A stretch of DNA of 50,538 nucleotides, from positions 1 through 50,538 of the forward strand of contig JALVEE010000012.1 in NCBI GenBank assembly GCA_027008645.1, written 5' to 3'. The notes under the pieces were generated by a model that did no database searches, was not told the DNA's origin, and saw only the letters and a program-made list of their open reading frames with translations. Position numbers and translations under genes: made by a program. Below, piece by piece: positions 39,749 to 49,213 of the stretch (positions within the stretch are counted from its first letter, which is position 1; the number at the start of each line of letters is the position of its first letter). This DNA comes from Saprospiraceae bacterium. GTDB lineage: Bacteria; Bacteroidota; Bacteroidia; Chitinophagales; Saprospiraceae.

Positions 39749-42700
39749 ATGAAATTTCTTATTAGCCTTGCATTTATTTTGTTTTCCTTTAGTTATATCA
39801 TTAGTCAAACTACAATATCGAGTGGGCGATTAAGCATTACCGTGGAAAATCTCGGTAACGGAGCTAAAGTAACACATATCAAAGACAATAGTACAGAGAC
39901 ATTGAATACTTCAACAACATCTGAGTTTTTCACTCTCACTATCCGAAATACAAACAATAGCAATGATTATAATATAAATTCTTTTTCCGGTTGGAATAAC
40001 GTAAATATATCGAGTACATCATCCAATTGCACTATCCAATTCAGCAATCCTGCAAGTGGCAATTTGCCTGCATCTCTCACAGCTACGGTCACAATCAACA
40101 CAAATGATGCAAAATCAGATTGGGACTTGTCAGTCGCAGGTCTTGATGCAAACCATTCGTTGATGGATGCAATATTTCCTAAACTGAATATAGAAACAAG
40201 CGGTAATGATACTATTATGTTACCATATTATTCAGGGAAATTGGTCTCAAATCCCGGTTCCGGTATAGATTATTCCGGTTTATATCCGAGAGGTTGGACG
40301 GCATCAATGCAATTTGAAGCATATTACAATGCTCAACGGGCAATGTATTTCGGTTTTCACGATCCGGGTGCCACCTTAAAAACTTTTGTTGTAAATGCTC
40401 AAAACGGAGGAGTCGAAATTGAATGCCAATACCCTTCTCCTGATAAAACCATAGCAGGCAATAATTGGTCATTGCCGGGTGTATTTGAACTGGATGCTTT
40501 TGACGGGGATTGGTATGATGCCTCGATCATTTACAAAGATTGGGCATCAAATAATGCGAATTATTGGCCTGCGTTGAATACTGAAAAAGTTTCGAGATTG
40601 CACGAAATAGGGGAAATCGGTGCCTGGTCATATAGTTATGTTAGTGACGGAGATATGAATTTAATAAAAACGTTAATCGAAACCTTTGCAAATTTTATGG
40701 AAGTTCCGGTCGGGGTGCACTTAAATGAATGGAATTATAAAGATTTTGATGATGATTACCCCGATTACTTTCCTGAAAGGAGCGGTTTTTCCACGATGAT
40801 TAACGATGTCCAAACCAATAATGATGTTTATGCCGTACCTTATATAAACGGTCGCCTTTTTGATACGGATTTGCCCGGATACGATGTTGATGGATTGCCT
40901 TATGCTACGAAGAAACCCGATGGCTCGATTTATTCTCAAAATTTTAATAACAATACATTTGCCGTAATGTGCCCGACACAAACACATTGGCAGGATACAT
41001 TGATAGATGCTGCCGATCAATTGACTGACAGAATAGGAACTTACGGTGTTTATATTGATCAGGTAACGGCAGCCGGTCCTAAAGAATGTATGGATAATAC
41101 ACACGGACATAGTCTTGGCGGAGGAAATTTTTGGCGTGAAGGATACAATGAAATGTTTGAAAGGATTCATAACAAAATACCATCCGGAAGATTTATTAAC
41201 TCCGAAAGCGGATGTGATTTTTTAGCCGATGAAGTAGATGGATTTTTGGTAGAAGGCTGGACAACTACAGGGCAAGTACCTGCTTTTTCAGTTGTTTATG
41301 CAGGCAGAAATATAATGTTTGGTACCAAAACAGGTACCAGTCATTATGGTGACCAACAATTTTATGCAAAACTTGCAATGGGTTTTATTTTCGGTTTTCA
41401 ACCGGGAAGACAAAGTTCCTGGTTGTTTATGAATCTTGCCAATGCATCACCAACTAAAAAAATGGCTGCAAATTATATCAAAAGATTGGGTAAGATGAGG
41501 TATAAATTGCGAAAATTTATGTCCTATGGCAAGATGCTTCACCCTTTGAACCTAACGGGGGAAATACCTTATTTGACTTATACGATATATGATTATGGAA
41601 CCCCTGAAACAGCAACAAGACCTGCTGTACAAAATTCGGTTTGGCAAAATGGGGATAGTGTCGTTGTATTGTTGGTGAATGCATCACTGCCCGATGTTCC
41701 AAATGTAATTGATGATAGTCTTAGCGTTTCGTTTAGTTTCAACGGTGCAGATTACGGTTTAACAGGGGCTTTGGCTGTAACGGAGTTGACGGATACATCG
41801 GAAAGTAGAACCGTATATTTGCCCAATACTTTCAATCAAATAGTAAATATCAGATCTATCAGTCCAAAAGCATATTTGATTAGACCGGCATCGGATTTAG
41901 GCAATATATATTACGTTTCTACTACAGGAAATGACGCAAATTCAGGCACAAGTGAAGCCTTGGCTTGGAGAACAATTAGTTATGCTGCATCAAGTTCCAG
42001 TCCTGTGCAAGCTGGGGATATTGTCTATATCAAAGCCGGTAATTATGGTGCTGAAAATATTGATTTCCAAAAATCGGGAACAGCAGTATTGCCTATACTT
42101 TTTGAAGGATATCAAAATACTCCCGGTGATAATCCCAACACCAATCATTCTTTTGGAGATGCGCTTGATGCGACAGTAATGCCGTTGCTTGACGGTGGTG
42201 ACAGAACAACCGCAGGAGGAGCATTTGAGTATAATAATAATTATTTTGTTTCGCTAAGAAACATTCAGATTACAAATTACAATTACGGTATTTACACCTA
42301 CGGCTCTTCAAATTTAACCTTTGATAATATCATAATATCCGAATTGGGTGATGTAAATGATTCTTATGATGGTACGGGATTAAGTATAAACGCAGACAAC
42401 AATGGCGACTTTGGTGAATACAACACAGTAAAGAATTGTTTTGTGGAAAACGCTGCTGCAGAAGGGTATTCTTTTGACGGAAATTATAATACAATTGAAA
42501 ATAGTAAAGTGTATTGTGATGAAGATACGGATAGTGCTGCGATGGATTATTATATTGTTTTTGGAGGTAATTACAATAAAATAGAAAACTGCTATGCGGA
42601 AAGAATAGGAGTTTTGGATCACGACGGACACGGTATCGGATTTAAGGGAAATTGCGAATACAATACGGTAAAAAACAGTACAGCCAAGAATCTCGGAGGT

Positions 42701-43585
42701 GGATTTTATGTCAGGCACAGAGCTTGTAAATTCAATACTTTTGAGAACTGCAAGGCATATGACTTGTATGGATTTGCTATAAGAGACGGTGCTAGCTATA
42801 ATACTTTCAGAAATTGTGAGGCTATCGACAACGAAAGTGCTGTTCTGTTTTATGATACCGATGAAGATGGAGGAGCACAATATACAGGCAGAAATAATAT
42901 TTTTGAAAATTGTATTTTCCGTAATACGAGTGAAAATGTTATAGACTTTTTTTATTATGAATTGGAATCCATTTGCGATAGCAATATATTTCAAAACTGT
43001 GTGATTGACAGTGGTGATTATTTATTCAATTGCGACAGAAGCAATCAGGACAATAAATTGGTGAATTGCATAGTGACTAATGTCAATAATTACTCACGTA
43101 CTGCATATCATCAGGACAACAGTTATACGCTAAATGTAATATTAGAAAACACGGACTTTTACAATAACGGATTCGCAGCACCTTCGGGAACTAATATAAC
43201 TACCTTTGATCCCAATTTTGTAGATGTTGCCAATCACGATTATCACCTTCAGAGCACTTCCCAATGTATCAATGCCGGCAATAACTATGAGAGCCCTGAT
43301 GCAGACAAAGAAGGCAATCCGCGTCCATTGATGGATACGGTAGATTTGGGAGTATATGAATTCGGTATTTATTGGACGGGATTCAAGGGCAATCATTGGA
43401 GAAATGCCGCTAATTGGTCAAACAATCAGATACCGACATCAGCCAACAAAGTGACGATTCCTTCACCAAAATATTATTATAATAGACCGGAAGTACACGA
43501 CAATTCACAGGTAAAAACCCTGTATCTGTTTGGCAACGGACAGATGATGATAAAAGATAATGTGGTTTTTGATGTGTTGGAGTGA
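39749..43585 (+). CDS. DUF6259-like glycosidase domain fused to a right-handed beta-helix
   Basis: 1278 residues. Signal peptide 1-19 (FISLAFILFSFSYIISQ type). Residues about 20-700 resemble DUF6259 proteins: a beta-sandwich (SGRLSITVENLGNGAKVTHI) followed by a TIM-barrel-like part with WSYSYVSDGD, VGVHLNEWNYKDFDDDYPDYFP, TYGVYIDQVTA (candidate nucleophile Asp) and RFINSESGCDFL (candidate Glu); catalytic roles are inference. Residues about 720-1190 form a beta-helix with the leader YYVSTTGNDANSGTSEALAWRTI and repeats N-x-F-x-N-C. The last 80 residues hold the module GNHWRNAANWSNNQIPTSANKVTIP. No T9SS sorting domain is visible. Probably acts on extracellular polysaccharide. Confidence 0.78.
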   Translation: MKFLISLAFILFSFSYIISQTTISSGRLSITVENLGNGAKVTHIKDNSTETLNTSTTSEFFTLTIRNTNNSNDYNINSFSGWNNVNISSTSSNCTIQFSNPASGNLPASLTATVTINTNDAKSDWDLSVAGLDANHSLMDAIFPKLNIETSGNDTIMLPYYSGKLVSNPGSGIDYSGLYPRGWTASMQFEAYYNAQRAMYFGFHDPGATLKTFVVNAQNGGVEIECQYPSPDKTIAGNNWSLPGVFELDAFDGDWYDASIIYKDWASNNANYWPALNTEKVSRLHEIGEIGAWSYSYVSDGDMNLIKTLIETFANFMEVPVGVHLNEWNYKDFDDDYPDYFPERSGFSTMINDVQTNNDVYAVPYINGRLFDTDLPGYDVDGLPYATKKPDGSIYSQNFNNNTFAVMCPTQTHWQDTLIDAADQLTDRIGTYGVYIDQVTAAGPKECMDNTHGHSLGGGNFWREGYNEMFERIHNKIPSGRFINSESGCDFLADEVDGFLVEGWTTTGQVPAFSVVYAGRNIMFGTKTGTSHYGDQQFYAKLAMGFIFGFQPGRQSSWLFMNLANASPTKKMAANYIKRLGKMRYKLRKFMSYGKMLHPLNLTGEIPYLTYTIYDYGTPETATRPAVQNSVWQNGDSVVVLLVNASLPDVPNVIDDSLSVSFSFNGADYGLTGALAVTELTDTSESRTVYLPNTFNQIVNIRSISPKAYLIRPASDLGNIYYVSTTGNDANSGTSEALAWRTISYAASSSSPVQAGDIVYIKAGNYGAENIDFQKSGTAVLPILFEGYQNTPGDNPNTNHSFGDALDATVMPLLDGGDRTTAGGAFEYNNNYFVSLRNIQITNYNYGIYTYGSSNLTFDNIIISELGDVNDSYDGTGLSINADNNGDFGEYNTVKNCFVENAAAEGYSFDGNYNTIENSKVYCDEDTDSAAMDYYIVFGGNYNKIENCYAERIGVLDHDGHGIGFKGNCEYNTVKNSTAKNLGGGFYVRHRACKFNTFENCKAYDLYGFAIRDGASYNTFRNCEAIDNESAVLFYDTDEDGGAQYTGRNNIFENCIFRNTSENVIDFFYYELESICDSNIFQNCVIDSGDYLFNCDRSNQDNKLVNCIVTNVNNYSRTAYHQDNSYTLNVILENTDFYNNGFAAPSGTNITTFDPNFVDVANHDYHLQSTSQCINAGNNYESPDADKEGNPRPLMDTVDLGVYEFGIYWTGFKGNHWRNAANWSNNQIPTSANKVTIPSPKYYYNRPEVHDNSQVKTLYLFGNGQMMIKDNVVFDVLE

Positions 43586-43693
43586 TTAATTGAAAATCAT
43601 TTTTAAAACTTTTTAAACATCTTCTTCATATACACTTATGTAGCTACAAAGGTCAAAAGAAAGAAATGATAACAATTTATAAAAAATAAAATC

Positions 43694-45451
43694 ATGAAAA
43701 AGCTTATATTAATTATATTATTGTTAAAAGTATTTTCAAGTAATGCTCAGATTAATTATTTTGTTACGCTTTCAGGAAATGATAATAATAGTGGAACAAG
43801 TGAAACAGATTCTTGGCGAACCATTAGCTATGCTCTTTCTGAGGCAAGTCCGGTTGAAGCCGGTGATACTGTTTTTGTAAAAGCCGGATATTACACGGAT
43901 GAAAATATTAAAATTGAAAAAAATGGTACAAAAACCAAACCAATTGTAGTACAAGGTTATAAATCTATTCCCAGAGATAATCCGGATTTTATTTTTGATT
44001 ACGGCGATAAATTTGATTCAATTTTAATGCCTTTACTGGATGGCCTTAATAGATCAACGGGTATTGGAATAGATGTAAACGGTTCAAAAAATATCACCTT
44101 TAATAACTTGCAGATAACAAATTATGAATATGGTATAATGGATCATACGGAAACTTATGATTTGAATACAACACTCAACAATATCTATATAACTAACATC
44201 GGAGATACTTTAGATTCATATTCGGGAAAAGCCATTGAATTCTATTCATCAAATAATGAAATTAACAATTGTGTTGTAGTAAATGCCAGTGCTCAAGGAA
44301 TTTTGGTAGAAGGCGATTATAATAAAATATTCAATTGTAAGATTTATTGTGATGATAGTACTTCCGTACAAGCCGCTATGGATTATTATATAGTTATTTA
44401 TTTCGGAAGCAATAATACTGTTGAAAATTGTTATGTTGAAAGAATAGGAGATTTACCTCATTACGGACATGGAATAGGCGTCAAAGGAGATTGTGAAAAT
44501 AATTTGATAAAAAATTGTATAGCAGTCAATTTCAGAGATGAAGCATTTTATGTAAGGCACCGGGGTTCCCGTTACAATACATTCCAAAATTGTAAAGCAA
44601 TCGGTGTCACCATTGATGCTGCCGGATTTATAGTTAGAGATGGGGCAAGTGATAATTTATTCAACAATTGCTGGGTTGATAGTTGCAAAAGGGGATTTAT
44701 GTTTTACGATTCGACTGAAGATGATGATGCTCAATATTGCGGGAGAAATAATATTTTTAATAATTGTATAGTGACCAACACGGAAATAGGTATTGATTTT
44801 AACGATTACGAATTGGATTCGGATGTGGATTCCAATATATTTTACAATTGTATTTTTTATTCAGGTACAACACTTGTCAATGTAGAGAGAAATAATTTTG
44901 AAAATAAAATGATCAATTGTATTGTCTCGGGTTATCAAAACCTAAAAATGGAATCAAACGGATACAGTTTGTCTTTTGATTTCAATTACTGTGATTTTTA
45001 TAATAATGGATTTGAAACTCCGTCAGGAATAGGAAATATTTCGGATAATCCTATGTTTGAAGATGCAATAAATAGTGATTTTCATTTGACTTCGACAAGT
45101 CCCTGTATTGATGCCGGAACGGATGCGGGAGCTCCGGTAATAGATTATGACGGCAATTTAAGACCGCAAGGGAATGGATTTGACATAGGTGCTTTTGAAT
45201 ATTTGACACCGTCATCTATTGCAAATACCGTCGAAAGCGAATATATAATTTCTCCCAATCCTACAGAGGGGAGAATTTACATTCACGATAGTTTCCAAAA
45301 TAAAGGCTATCATATATATTCATCAACCGGATTGCTTGTGAAAAAAGGAATAATTGAAACAAATGAACTCAATTTATCATGTTTAAACCCTGGAATTTAT
45401 TTCCTCGTAATAGGTAATAATATAAATATGAAAAAAATAATTAAAATTTAA
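43694..45451 (+). CDS. Right-handed beta-helix protein with T9SS type A sorting domain
   Basis: 585 residues, signal peptide MKKLILIILLLKVFSSNAQ. It is a clear paralogue of the C-terminal half of the preceding gene: YFVTLSGNDNNSGTSETDSWRTISY, AMDYYIV, HYGHGIGVKGDCENNLIKNC, FYVRHRGSRYNTFQNCKA, VRDGASDNLFNNC, FYDSTEDDDAQYCGRNNIFNNC, and the choice-of-anchor ending STSPCIDAGTDAG...DIGAFEYL. The final 75 residues are a Por-type sorting signal (SPNPTEGRIYI ... LNPGIYFLVIGN ... KKIIKI). Beta-helices of this kind are common in polysaccharide lyases and epimerases; no lyase activity can be proved. It follows the DUF6259 gene by about 108 bases. Confidence 0.83.
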   Translation: MKKLILIILLLKVFSSNAQINYFVTLSGNDNNSGTSETDSWRTISYALSEASPVEAGDTVFVKAGYYTDENIKIEKNGTKTKPIVVQGYKSIPRDNPDFIFDYGDKFDSILMPLLDGLNRSTGIGIDVNGSKNITFNNLQITNYEYGIMDHTETYDLNTTLNNIYITNIGDTLDSYSGKAIEFYSSNNEINNCVVVNASAQGILVEGDYNKIFNCKIYCDDSTSVQAAMDYYIVIYFGSNNTVENCYVERIGDLPHYGHGIGVKGDCENNLIKNCIAVNFRDEAFYVRHRGSRYNTFQNCKAIGVTIDAAGFIVRDGASDNLFNNCWVDSCKRGFMFYDSTEDDDAQYCGRNNIFNNCIVTNTEIGIDFNDYELDSDVDSNIFYNCIFYSGTTLVNVERNNFENKMINCIVSGYQNLKMESNGYSLSFDFNYCDFYNNGFETPSGIGNISDNPMFEDAINSDFHLTSTSPCIDAGTDAGAPVIDYDGNLRPQGNGFDIGAFEYLTPSSIANTVESEYIISPNPTEGRIYIHDSFQNKGYHIYSSTGLLVKKGIIETNELNLSCLNPGIYFLVIGNNINMKKIIKI

Positions 45452-45592
45452 TGCTCAACGATTATTGAATAATAAAAATTTTACTGGATTTTTTCTGTAT
45501 AATATTAGTGATAAAGTATCGGAAAATTAAAAAAATAAATTATGTTGCAATATTATTTTATCAAATCTTATCAGATAGAAAAACGCAAAATA

Positions 45593-48500
45593 ATGACAAC
45601 TTCAAAGTACATTAAACTATTTGTTATAAATTTCTTTATTTTTTTTCTTACTTACAATATCAAAGCACAAACACCTCCGATTGTTTATGTCGCAGGTGAC
45701 GGAACGGGTGATTATAATTGTGACGGTGTAAGTGATCAAGTACAAATCAATCAAGCTTTGGATTATGTCGCTGCAAATGCGGGTTTTACCACGGTTTATC
45801 TGAAAGGCGAGTTTACTTATATTATCGATGAGCCTGTATTAATGACAAGCAATACTATACTCACCGGAGATTCTACCGCAACGATTAGATTGAAAGATAG
45901 TGTAGGATGGAATACACTATATAAGCCGTTAATAAGCCAAAAAAATCATACCGGTTGGGATGCCTGGGGAGTGGAAGGTGATAGTATTTCCAATGTTGAG
46001 ATTTATGGTTTTAATATAGATGGAGGTGATCAAGCCGAACCTGCCGGACAAGGATATATAGCTTTGATTCATTTTCGTTTTCCATATAATATTTCCATTT
46101 ATAATATGCATTTACTTAATAGCCGTTGGGATATTGTCCGCCTTTCTGCATCTGACCTGACTTCAACCCACTCCAATGTTTACAATAATAAAATTGAATA
46201 TTCAGGCCACGAGGGAATTTGTTATGTTGGACTTTCAAATTTTGATGTTTATAATAATGAAATATTTCATACAAGAACAAATTGCGGAATAAGATTAAAA
46301 GACTGCGATACTTTTGATATTCATAATAATATCATCGGAAATAATCTAACAAAAACACCGGGCGGATATACAGGAATATTAGTAGAAAATCAACACAAAC
46401 CTCATACAGGACAAACAGAGATCTATGAGAATATTATTTATGGAAAAAACGGTGGAATACATATTGGCAGTCAACAAAACCACGCTACTTACCCTATTGA
46501 TTCAAGGATAAACGTACGCGTTCATCATAATAAAATTTTTAAAACCCGGGATACGGATGATGGTTCGGGATTTGTATTAGATGCAGGAATTAAAATAGGG
46601 GGATTTCAAAATACCATAATTGAACACAATGTAATTGAAGAAGGCTCAACAGATGCGATTGTATATGAAGGAAATTTAGGAGGCAGTTCCGGTTATGAAA
46701 CCACAGTTAGAAATAATATTATCTTAAATAATGACGGTTACGCTATCAATAATAAAGAACCTTCCATAAACACTTTCATTTTGAATAATAATATTATTTT
46801 TAATAATACCGGAGGCGATTACAATAATGCTTCATCTACTACGGATATTTATTCCGATCCGTTATTTGCCGGTGCTCACCTCCCTTTGAATCAATGGTAT
46901 CATATTGTTGCAACTTATGATAATAGTACGGAGACTTTCAAGATATATGTGGACGGGGAAGAACATACAAGCAAGAAAATTCCGGGATTCGGAACTATTG
47001 GAACAAATACAAGATATTTGTTTCTCGGTGGATATAGAGCTGCTGCATATTGGTTTAAGGGGAAAATGGATGAACTTGCTATTTGGAACCGGGCGTTGAC
47101 AATAACCGAGGTAAATGTTTTGTACAATGACGGTTTGCCTGACGATATTATGGGAAGTAGTATAAAAACGGGAATGCAAGCTTATTTCAAAATGGAAAAT
47201 AATTGGAATGATAGTAGTGGGAATAATTACAATGCCATAGACAGTACCGCAAGTTTTGCAACAGAAGCATTCAATGGTAATTATGCAGGACTTTTTGATG
47301 GAATTGACGATTACGTACTATATCCGAATACTTTATCAACTTCCGACGGTTTATCTATTTCGGTTTGGGTTAATATTGGTTTAAGTACCGAATCTGAACA
47401 AAGCATACTCAATAAAGGAAAACAAGAAAGTAACAATCATATTTGGTTATATATTAAAAATGATTGCTTAATCTTTGAATTGGGCAATGGATCTGATAGA
47501 GAATCGATAGCAGCACATATCCTAAATCCCTGGGATATGGATTATCACGTAAAATCCAAAACCGGCCGATGGGACAAAAACAAATGGGTCAAAGATGATG
47601 TTTTTAGCCCTTGTATCGACGGAGGATATCCCGCTTCGGATTTTTCCAAAGAAACAATGCCTAACGGAGATACTGTCAATATCGGAGTTTACGGCAATAC
47701 TGCCGAAGCCTCCAAAAGTGCTACTCATAATTACTATGTTTCTCCATCAGGAAATAATGCCAATTCAGGGTTATCCATCGCTGATGCTTGGGAAACAATC
47801 GCTTATGCAGCTTCTTCTGCGAGTCCTGTCCTTGCCGGTGATACGGTATTTATCATTCAAGGCAATTATAACGAAAGGGTATTGGTGGAAAAATCGGGTA
47901 CATTCGGCACAAATATCGTCTTTACAAACTATCAAAATGATGAGGTTACAGTAGATGGAACCGGAATTTCGTGGGGCAATTCCTGGAACGGATTGATTGA
48001 CATATCGAATAGAAAATATGTGGATATATCGGGATTGAATGTCAAAAACTCTGATTATGGAGGTATTTGGGTAGAAGATTGCGATACTATTGTGATTAAA
48101 AACAATAAAACTTATAATACCTATTCGAGTGGTATCGGTGTTTGGAACAGCAATAATGTCCGGGTCGAAAACAATGAAGTGGAACTTGCTTGTAATGACG
48201 GCGAACAAGAATGTATTTCGATTGCCAATTCACATAATTGCGATATACTGAAAAATCTTGTTCACGACAATGGTCCGGGAACAAATGGAGGTGAAGGCAT
48301 TGACGTAAAACAAGGTTCTCACGATGTCAGAGTTTATCAAAATACCGTACATCATCTTAACGAACGTATAGGTATTTACGTTGATGCTTGGGATCAACAT
48401 ACATACAATATAGATGTATTTAACAATACAGTACACCATTGTGGTAATAATGGATTCAATGCCCAAACGGAGATGGGAGGACTACTCGAAAATGTGCGGT

Positions 48501-49213
48501 TTTATAACAATATCTCATATTTTAATAAATGGGACGGGATAGCTCTGGGTAGTGTTACAGCCGATCCGAATGTAACCGTTACTCCGGTTAAACACGTAAA
48601 AGTAATAAACAATACTTGTTACAAAAACGGTTCTTATCAGAGTGGATGGGGATATGGTATTTTAGTAAATAACGATGATTTGCAAGATGTATTGATCAGA
48701 AATAATATCTGTAGCAGGAATAGTGCACAAATCGCAATTGAAAATATAGACACAATTTCGCAAGTGGATCACAATCTCATTTTCGGATACAATGACGCTG
48801 CAAGTTGTGTATATGGAGCAGATTCGGTAATAGGAGATCCTTTATTTGTTGACACAGTGACTTTTGATTTTCATTTGCAAGACAATTCACCGGCAATTGA
48901 AGCGGGAATATACTTGGATTCCATCTCTTTTGACAGGGATAGCATACCGCGTTCGCTATTGGCAAAACCCGACATCGGTGCTTATGAATACGGTATTTAT
49001 TGGATAGGGCAGGTTAATAATGATTGGAATGAACCGGGTAATTGGTCCAACAATCAAGTTCCCTCTTCGACAGACAAGGTGACAATTCCACCGCCTGAGT
49101 ATTACAAATATCGCTTGGAAGTCAATGTCAATTCGCAAATAAAAGCAATATACATTAATAAAAATGCAAAGATGCTAATAAAAGAAAATGTAGGATTTGA
49201 TGTGGAGGAATGA
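45593..49213 (+). CDS. Double beta-helix secreted protein with LamG insertion
   Basis: 1206 residues from the ATG at 45593 (MTTSKYIKLFVINFFIFFL signal). An ATG at 45542 would add 17 polar residues and lies beside a weak -7-like TATGTTGC, so it is less likely. Residues about 33-425: pectate-lyase-like beta-helix (GDGTGDYNCDGVSDQVQINQ, many H-N-N-x-I). Residues about 429-643: LamG-type sandwich in permuted order. Residues 644-710: remnant of a choice-of-anchor Q end (DYHVKSKTGRW, SPCIDGG, NIGVYGNTAEAS). Residues 713-1130: second helix starting YYVSPSGNNANSGLSIADAW. The end shares the NWSNNQVP module with the 39749 gene. No sorting domain is visible. Confidence 0.78.
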   Translation: MTTSKYIKLFVINFFIFFLTYNIKAQTPPIVYVAGDGTGDYNCDGVSDQVQINQALDYVAANAGFTTVYLKGEFTYIIDEPVLMTSNTILTGDSTATIRLKDSVGWNTLYKPLISQKNHTGWDAWGVEGDSISNVEIYGFNIDGGDQAEPAGQGYIALIHFRFPYNISIYNMHLLNSRWDIVRLSASDLTSTHSNVYNNKIEYSGHEGICYVGLSNFDVYNNEIFHTRTNCGIRLKDCDTFDIHNNIIGNNLTKTPGGYTGILVENQHKPHTGQTEIYENIIYGKNGGIHIGSQQNHATYPIDSRINVRVHHNKIFKTRDTDDGSGFVLDAGIKIGGFQNTIIEHNVIEEGSTDAIVYEGNLGGSSGYETTVRNNIILNNDGYAINNKEPSINTFILNNNIIFNNTGGDYNNASSTTDIYSDPLFAGAHLPLNQWYHIVATYDNSTETFKIYVDGEEHTSKKIPGFGTIGTNTRYLFLGGYRAAAYWFKGKMDELAIWNRALTITEVNVLYNDGLPDDIMGSSIKTGMQAYFKMENNWNDSSGNNYNAIDSTASFATEAFNGNYAGLFDGIDDYVLYPNTLSTSDGLSISVWVNIGLSTESEQSILNKGKQESNNHIWLYIKNDCLIFELGNGSDRESIAAHILNPWDMDYHVKSKTGRWDKNKWVKDDVFSPCIDGGYPASDFSKETMPNGDTVNIGVYGNTAEASKSATHNYYVSPSGNNANSGLSIADAWETIAYAASSASPVLAGDTVFIIQGNYNERVLVEKSGTFGTNIVFTNYQNDEVTVDGTGISWGNSWNGLIDISNRKYVDISGLNVKNSDYGGIWVEDCDTIVIKNNKTYNTYSSGIGVWNSNNVRVENNEVELACNDGEQECISIANSHNCDILKNLVHDNGPGTNGGEGIDVKQGSHDVRVYQNTVHHLNERIGIYVDAWDQHTYNIDVFNNTVHHCGNNGFNAQTEMGGLLENVRFYNNISYFNKWDGIALGSVTADPNVTVTPVKHVKVINNTCYKNGSYQSGWGYGILVNNDDLQDVLIRNNICSRNSAQIAIENIDTISQVDHNLIFGYNDAASCVYGADSVIGDPLFVDTVTFDFHLQDNSPAIEAGIYLDSISFDRDSIPRSLLAKPDIGAYEYGIYWIGQVNNDWNEPGNWSNNQVPSSTDKVTIPPPEYYKYRLEVNVNSQIKAIYINKNAKMLIKENVGFDVEE
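46877..47521 (+). other. LamG-like module inserted in circularly permuted order
   Basis: The host protein reads ...DPLFAGA, breaks into HLPLNQWYHIVATYDN (second half of a LamG domain, to AIWNRALTITEVNVLYNDG), then YFKMENNWNDSSGNNYNA (first half of a LamG domain, to ELGNGSDRESIAAHI), and resumes with NPWDMDYHVKSKTGRW. Joining the two outer ends restores a normal choice-of-anchor Q domain, while joining the end of the insert to its start restores a normal LamG (AAHI + LPLNQWYHI). The insert is about 645 bases, the size of one LamG domain. Confidence 0.6.

Follow-up and report, generated by a model that had tools for sequence, protein, structure and literature searches.

The gene considered here raises the question of how a LamG domain whose second half precedes its first half came to lie within another protein domain that is split around it, and whether such a module is a single domain at all. 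The window analyzed is a stretch of 50,538 nucleotides, which is contig 12 of the 366 contigs of the draft genome of a Saprospiraceae bacterium. Pfam searches of the open reading frame at 45542-49213 returned Disaggr_assoc (PF08480; 116.7 bits for the host domain against a cut-off of 22.6), Beta_helix regions and two stretches of Laminin_G_3 (PF13385), and the parts of the gene are listed in Table 1. An earlier note on this DNA had named the split host domain a choice-of-anchor domain, and it is actually Disaggr_assoc; the NCBI choice-of-anchor Q model (NF041518) matched residues 1106-1150 only, where the second beta-helix ends, and not the split site.

Table 1. Parts of the gene and of the encoded protein, in positions of the window; the insert boundaries are uncertain by a few residues at the ends
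Feature	Positions	Strand	Details
Open reading frame	45542..49213	+	1223 aa; hydrophobic N-terminus, two beta-helices, LamG insert, C-terminal module
Host part 1	45671..46870	+	Residues 44-443; right-handed beta-helix, ends ...SDPLFA; includes PF08480 positions 4-162
Insert (complete circularly permuted LamG)	46871..47524	+	Residues 444-661; 218 aa, 654 bp, in frame
LamG C-half	46880..47146	+	NQWYHIVATYD...MDELAIWNRALT...LYNDG; PF13385 about 73/76-150
Linker, old C-terminus to old N-terminus	47147..47179	+	11 residues by custom LamG profile
LamG N-half	47180..47524	+	AYFKMENNWNDSSGN...FDGIDDYV...FELGNGS; PF13385 1-65
Host part 2	47525..47719	+	Residues 662-726; NPWDMDYHVKSKTGRW...SPCIDGG...NIGVYGNTAEASKS; PF08480 positions 160-194 and tail
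Second beta-helix (PF13229)	47720..48991	+	Its end is the choice-of-anchor Q match, residues 1106-1150
C-terminal module	48989..49210	+	About 70 aa; common to many proteins of the same genus

The two stretches of PF13385 bear out the claim that the second LamG half comes before the first, with the 5' piece corresponding to profile positions 73-150 (73.8 bits) and the 3' piece to positions 1-65 (23.5 bits). Since the N-half alone scored below the Pfam cut-off of 27.6 bits, its assignment is based on its position, its conservation and a re-ordering test. In the natural order the insert scored 88.6 bits in two stretches (same cut-off), and with its halves re-ordered it gave one match that covered profile positions 1-150 of 151 at 100 bits. 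Two independent partial LamG domains were rejected because the pieces jointly form one full PF13385 domain; both halves are present in the insert, and the normal linear order was not found there. The solved structure of a canonical LamG domain, 4qvs, was also matched by the insert halves in swapped order, with the second stretch being weak alone (6.5 bits). A custom LamG profile of 206 positions, made from 30 canonical domains with seeds chosen by similarity to the re-ordered insert, matched the window protein at positions 75-202 and then at positions 3-108. LamG matches reaching upstream into the host (custom-profile stretch 75-107) were discarded as spill-over, the same host stretch being present in relatives without LamG. 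By this profile the C-half came first in all seven genes that carry the insert (one of them, L089, was added in a later batch), and the reversed order occurred in none of 43 other LamG open reading frames (34 and 9 later), some of which are partial or cut by the end of the locus. The FDGIDDYV motif of the window is incomplete in one copy in a congeneric genome (G002 C513) and in another genome of the family (G003). We confirmed that the insert is a complete LamG domain in which the C-half comes first, followed by the linker and then by the N-half. Annotation with linear profiles misreports such modules as "two partial LamG domains."

The host domain is likewise whole once the insert is taken out. 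PF08480 matches 46415-46876 (positions 4-162) and resumes at 47522-47626 (positions 160-194), so that the host rejoins at 162|160 and, as with the LamG re-ordered to 1-150 at 100 bits, the joins restore normal domains, as had been proposed. Relatives without LamG have short loops that read like DPLFA-DPAGG-DYHL (another example is DPLFADPAGGDYHL), and the window has DPLFA, 218 residues and then NPWDM-DYHV. We placed the insert at about 46871-47524 because these short-loop relatives show the uninterrupted host loop; the interval first proposed, 46877-47521, was within 6 bases of this. Compared with the short-loop relatives, no loss of host residues in the window is required. With the loop taken to run from the DPLF-type motif to the YH/LH motif, loops were compared in 20 host genes, namely those surfacing in the searches with recognizable motifs (the motif was widened before the final count). 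Seven of them, including the window, had loops of 221-227 residues, all with the permuted LamG, and the other 13 had no LamG at the site, with loops of 6-18 residues (n = 11) or of 44 and 50 residues (n = 2). The two intermediate loops belong to a Chloroflexota gene (L098) and to G004 (L053, G004 C100) and have similar ends, LGA..AWQ(I/V)YH. The 50-residue loop of G004 was considered as a possible LamG remnant and gave no LamG match. PF08480 matches in L077, L078, L081 and L084 cross the site with continuous profile coordinates, and those in L082, L083, L085 and L086 stop short of it, as does that in L088 (own genome, contig 6, profile 3-83). Insert-free relatives exist, and therefore the LamG at this site arose by insertion; the permuted LamG is confirmed as inserted into the split PF08480 domain. 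A target-site duplication was rejected, since A-H occurs at both ends of the insert in the window only and is absent in G002 C484 and others.

Some other proteins combined similar parts differently. In three host-like genes (L073, L096 and L097) the loop was 18 residues long and a canonical LamG lay farther along the protein, so that this type of host is also combined with LamG in the usual manner. In the window's own genome, one protein (L001, G000 C246) had a pectate-lyase-like helix, a canonical LamG and a beta-helix in a row, not nested.

The permuted insert was found at the same site in seven genes of six genomes (Saprospiraceae, gammaproteobacterial and Anaerolineae metagenome-assembled genomes [MAGs]), which are named in their records for three phyla; all carriers are draft assemblies. 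Within the window's family, 3 of 298 genomes carried it: the window's own, G002, which is of the same genus and has two copies, and G003. In a draw from the phylum, 5 of 395 genomes matched, and these were the window's own and four with two or three canonical LamGs per protein. A scan for exact peptide words in 84,980 species genomes gave eight loci, of which three were permuted carriers: L044 (in G002), L045 (in a MAG named Alcanivoracaceae) and L046 (in a MAG named Anaerolineae). The order of L045 had 11 matching genomes out of 240, two with the permuted insert, eight with the host tail only and one with LamG only; the second carrier there was G1209 (L089), in which the sequence ends just after the insert. 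In the class of L046, 14 of 239 genomes matched, namely the carrier itself, two with the host without an insert (L098 and L099) and 11 with LamG only (LamG order was checked in seven of these 11). This distribution is a lower bound, since the peptide-word scan overlooks diverged copies such as the second copy of G002.

As a full explanation, we consider it probable that the gene encodes a secreted beta-helix of the PF08480 kind with a nested permuted LamG that derives from the insertion of a single array unit. One unit cut out of phase from a tandem LamG array, consisting of a C-half, the inter-unit linker and the N-half of the next unit, would have entered the DPLFA/DPAxxDYHL loop once and would have been kept as a binding module tethered by two strands, and horizontal transfer would then have carried the gene between phyla. 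In the seven carriers, 10-14 residues separate the C-half from the N-half (custom profile). Neighboring LamG pairs in other proteins had joints of 1-19 residues in 20 of 36 cases, which makes the earlier note's suggestion of a tandem-array unit as the source plausible; the joints of at least 21 residues in the other 16 pairs count against it. Close pairs were present in L010, L021, L051, L061, L062, L063, L065, L067, L100, L101, L103 and L104. The linker of a LamG array on a viral contig, LYNEGLPSNLNSHSAYSNLVSWWQL, resembled that of the window, LYNDGLPDDIMGSSIKTGMQAYFKM (LYNEGLPSNL versus LYNDGLPDDI), and, carriers aside, the proteins that best matched the permuted sequence in one contiguous stretch were tandem arrays, at about 32% identity. 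The short joints, the array-like linker and the array matches fit the insertion of a single unit taken out of phase from such an array. Among these arrays, the best being about 32% identical, no source array was identified. A source in the own genome (G000) was rejected, as none of the six LamG places other than this gene's two was close. The nearest canonical row in the LamG tree was a single Carboxylicivirga LamG on a long branch.

The same product could have arisen in place if a normal LamG had been inserted and tandemly duplicated and the outer halves had then been lost, which we consider unlikely. This is the classical path of "permutation by duplication," as described in the part of a review available to us (PMC3320104), and it yields an identical end product. 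However, a normal-order or double LamG was found in the loop in none of the 20 host genes examined, and the path requires two extra deletions with matching ends. No evolutionary intermediate was seen among these genes for either array-unit insertion or permutation in place; since the product is the same, ranking array-unit insertion above permutation in place is a matter of judgment.

Structure prediction of the insert alone gave a model with a mean pLDDT of 70.2 and a pTM of 0.74, with values below 50 where the N-half begins (model residues 131-156); the underlying alignment included eight array rows, a possible bias. The best structural match of this model was 1ajo (Z of 10.0, rmsd of 3.2, 146 aligned residues and 9% identity), and 47 of the 50 structural rows listed were concanavalin-A-type lectins, at Z of 5.7-6.3, a range (Z below 8) that may reflect merely a common arrangement. 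Concanavalin-A-type lectins have the permuted order of concanavalin A. The canonical LamG 4qvs aligned to the model over 95 residues, on the C-half side. That a structure is missing from these rows does not count against its similarity. A Foldseek search with the insert model gave no match at an E value of 0.001 or less, the best being 0.027, to 1ajo. The whole-protein model, from a four-sequence alignment, had a mean pLDDT of 54.2, with nearly all of the insert below 50. The modeling supports, without establishing, that the insert folds as a closed jelly roll, in which the chain would enter and exit via the loop before the NQWYH strand and the original ends would be joined by the short linker. 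That a folded permuted LamG would be unusual, as had been stated, holds for LamG and not for the wider fold, as permuted concanavalin-A-like jelly rolls are known (PMC3320104, as far as available).

It is quite improbable that the halves do not form one domain, either because each swaps with the half of another chain or because they are two unrelated fragments. The absence of confidence in the insert fold in the full-length model and the sub-cut-off Pfam score of the N-half would agree with such a reading, but the pieces jointly make one full LamG profile, both halves are conserved together in seven genes, and the insert-alone model, with its pTM of 0.74, matches permuted jelly rolls.

The degree of divergence among the carriers bears on the age of the insertion. 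Identities to the window in host N part and insert, respectively, were 89 and 92% for the first copy of G002, 62 and 48% for its second copy, 60 and 62% for G003, 57 and 58% for L045, 61 and 61% for L046 and 44 and 44% for L089. Host and insert have kept pace in their divergence in all but the second copy of G002, and the same site and the same permutation point were kept down to 43-44% identity. Between the window and G002, the insert had a dN of 0.038 and a dS of 0.206 and the host N part had a dN of 0.056 and a dS of 0.298; the dN/dS of about 0.18 indicates purifying selection. In a quick tree of 60 LamG domains, from which L089 was left out, the six re-ordered copies formed a clade with an SH-aLRT of 99, and in the host tree the six carriers grouped against G004 and Methanomethylovorans hollandica with modest support (74/88). 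Related genes in distant bacteria have the same arrangement, so that the permuted insert looks like a settled, functional architecture instead of a recent accident. On these comparisons, one old insertion, selectively kept and spread between phyla by horizontal transfer, is most likely. With both diverged carriers and insert-free relatives available, one can test in what order the events occurred and what advantage the permutation gives. One carrier, L052 (G002 C513), was a mosaic, with a second beta-helix 95% identical to that of the window and a LamG insert 48% identical, which suggests that paralogues have recombined or that the insert has changed faster.

A recent insertion, perhaps via a circular DNA intermediate, was the reading of the earlier note. 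The host does read on when its flanks are compared with short-loop relatives, but the shared site and permutation point in seven genes, down to 43-44% identity, the similar G+C contents of insert and host N part in the window (0.357 versus 0.350) and the finding that the region matches no other DNA of its own genome make a recent event highly improbable. Recency was to be judged by whether homologues share the order; order and site were the same in all seven insert-bearing homologues, from three named phyla, so the claim failed among insert carriers, the other relatives having no insert. No support was found for the circular intermediate. An assembly or binning artefact is barely conceivable, since, although the carriers are all drafts, the contigs of the distant ones are short (7.7 and 9.1 kb) and L089 is cut by the sequence end just past the insert, there are seven diverged open reading frames with purifying selection, and the G+C contents of the distant carrier genes are near those of the contigs on which they lie (0.539 against 0.575 and 0.402 against 0.380).

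The host model (construct residues 1-399) aligned to a module of the mannuronan C5-epimerase AlgE6 (Z of 36.0, rmsd of 2.5, 331 aligned residues and 18% identity) and further to alginate epimerase/lyases, polygalacturonases, phage tailspikes and an adhesin. Because the matches include tailspikes and an adhesin besides polysaccharide enzymes, the fold leaves the function unfixed. Among the 20 host genes, a GH(E/D)(G/A) motif was present in 10 and an RT(N/D) motif in 9; all seven carriers, G004 and M. hollandica had both, L098 had GH(E/D)(G/A) alone, and the remaining 10 (one of which, L073, is cut) had neither. The host is likely an enzyme, and it probably acts on a uronate-type polysaccharide. 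Disaggregatase cleaves a uronic-acid bond in methanochondroitin, an activity characterized in M. mazei only, according to the part of the source available (PMC12369344). The likeliest predicted role of the insert is carbohydrate binding, as a module that two strands would tether to the end of the helix, beside what would be the polysaccharide groove. LamG domains are usually binding modules. It is possible, and we put it forward tentatively, that the loop closing the PF08480 helix naturally takes up accessory modules, either short ones of about 45-50 residues or the permuted LamG of 220 residues, and that permutation was selected as the sole topology giving a two-strand tether with the binding face over the polysaccharide groove. 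If true, the inter-phylum family would be a natural series of enzyme-lectin fusions.

Two adjoining beta-helix proteins are encoded next to the gene at 39749-45451, one with DUF6259 and the other with a type IX sorting tail, and they suggest a gene cluster related to polysaccharides. Among the 15 open reading frames of the window scanned with Pfam, a part of its total, there was no SusC/SusD pair. The C-terminal module of about 70 residues, IYW.G...W....NWS...P.....V.IP..., also ends the open reading frame at 39749-43585 and many congeneric and some family proteins. Its sole Pfam match was Amnionless, below the cut-off, and the module may have a sorting or anchoring function of a kind not yet recorded.

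Among known systems, the PF08480 protein of M. hollandica (WP_015313984) has the same host domain, with 36% identity in the host N part, but has a 12-residue loop without LamG at the site. Canonical LamG domains (PF13385), such as that of the S-layer protein 4qvs, are matched by both halves, the second weakly, and the order of the halves is reversed here. The best structural match of the insert model, 1ajo, is a circularly permuted beta-glucanase, cpA16M-127, which we take to be a laboratory construct; it is permuted as the insert is, but it is a glucanase of 9% identity. Concanavalin A, compared with favin, is another circularly permuted jelly roll of the concanavalin-A-like type, but it is permuted after translation and has no host domain, whereas here the gene itself is permuted (PMC3320104, in the part available). 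In the open-access literature, to the extent that its texts were available, we found one paper that names PF08480 and no earlier account of a circularly permuted LamG: the terms "laminin" and "LamG" are absent from the available part of CIRPIN (PMC12667903), as are "laminin," "lectin" and "concanavalin" from that of a survey of domain insertions (PMC13114784). The same part of the survey separates insertion from permutation, and here the two are combined in one module. The closest precedent is the swaposin, the plant-specific insert of plant aspartic proteinases, which is a saposin in circularly permuted form (Ponting and Russell 1995, cited in the available part of PMC3320104). In both cases a whole half-swapped domain is nested in another protein, its host halves rejoin around it, and its source family also occurs in tandem repeats (prosaposin for the swaposin). 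However, the swaposin has the all-alpha saposin fold and a plant protease as its host, and the module described here is a LamG of the beta jelly-roll type hosted by a bacterial beta-helix. The swaposin is the textbook natural case of a nested circular permutant at the level of the gene, and the present locus adds an example from bacteria whose lectin-like fold is very common; it is of interest to the fields of protein topology and carbohydrate-active proteins.
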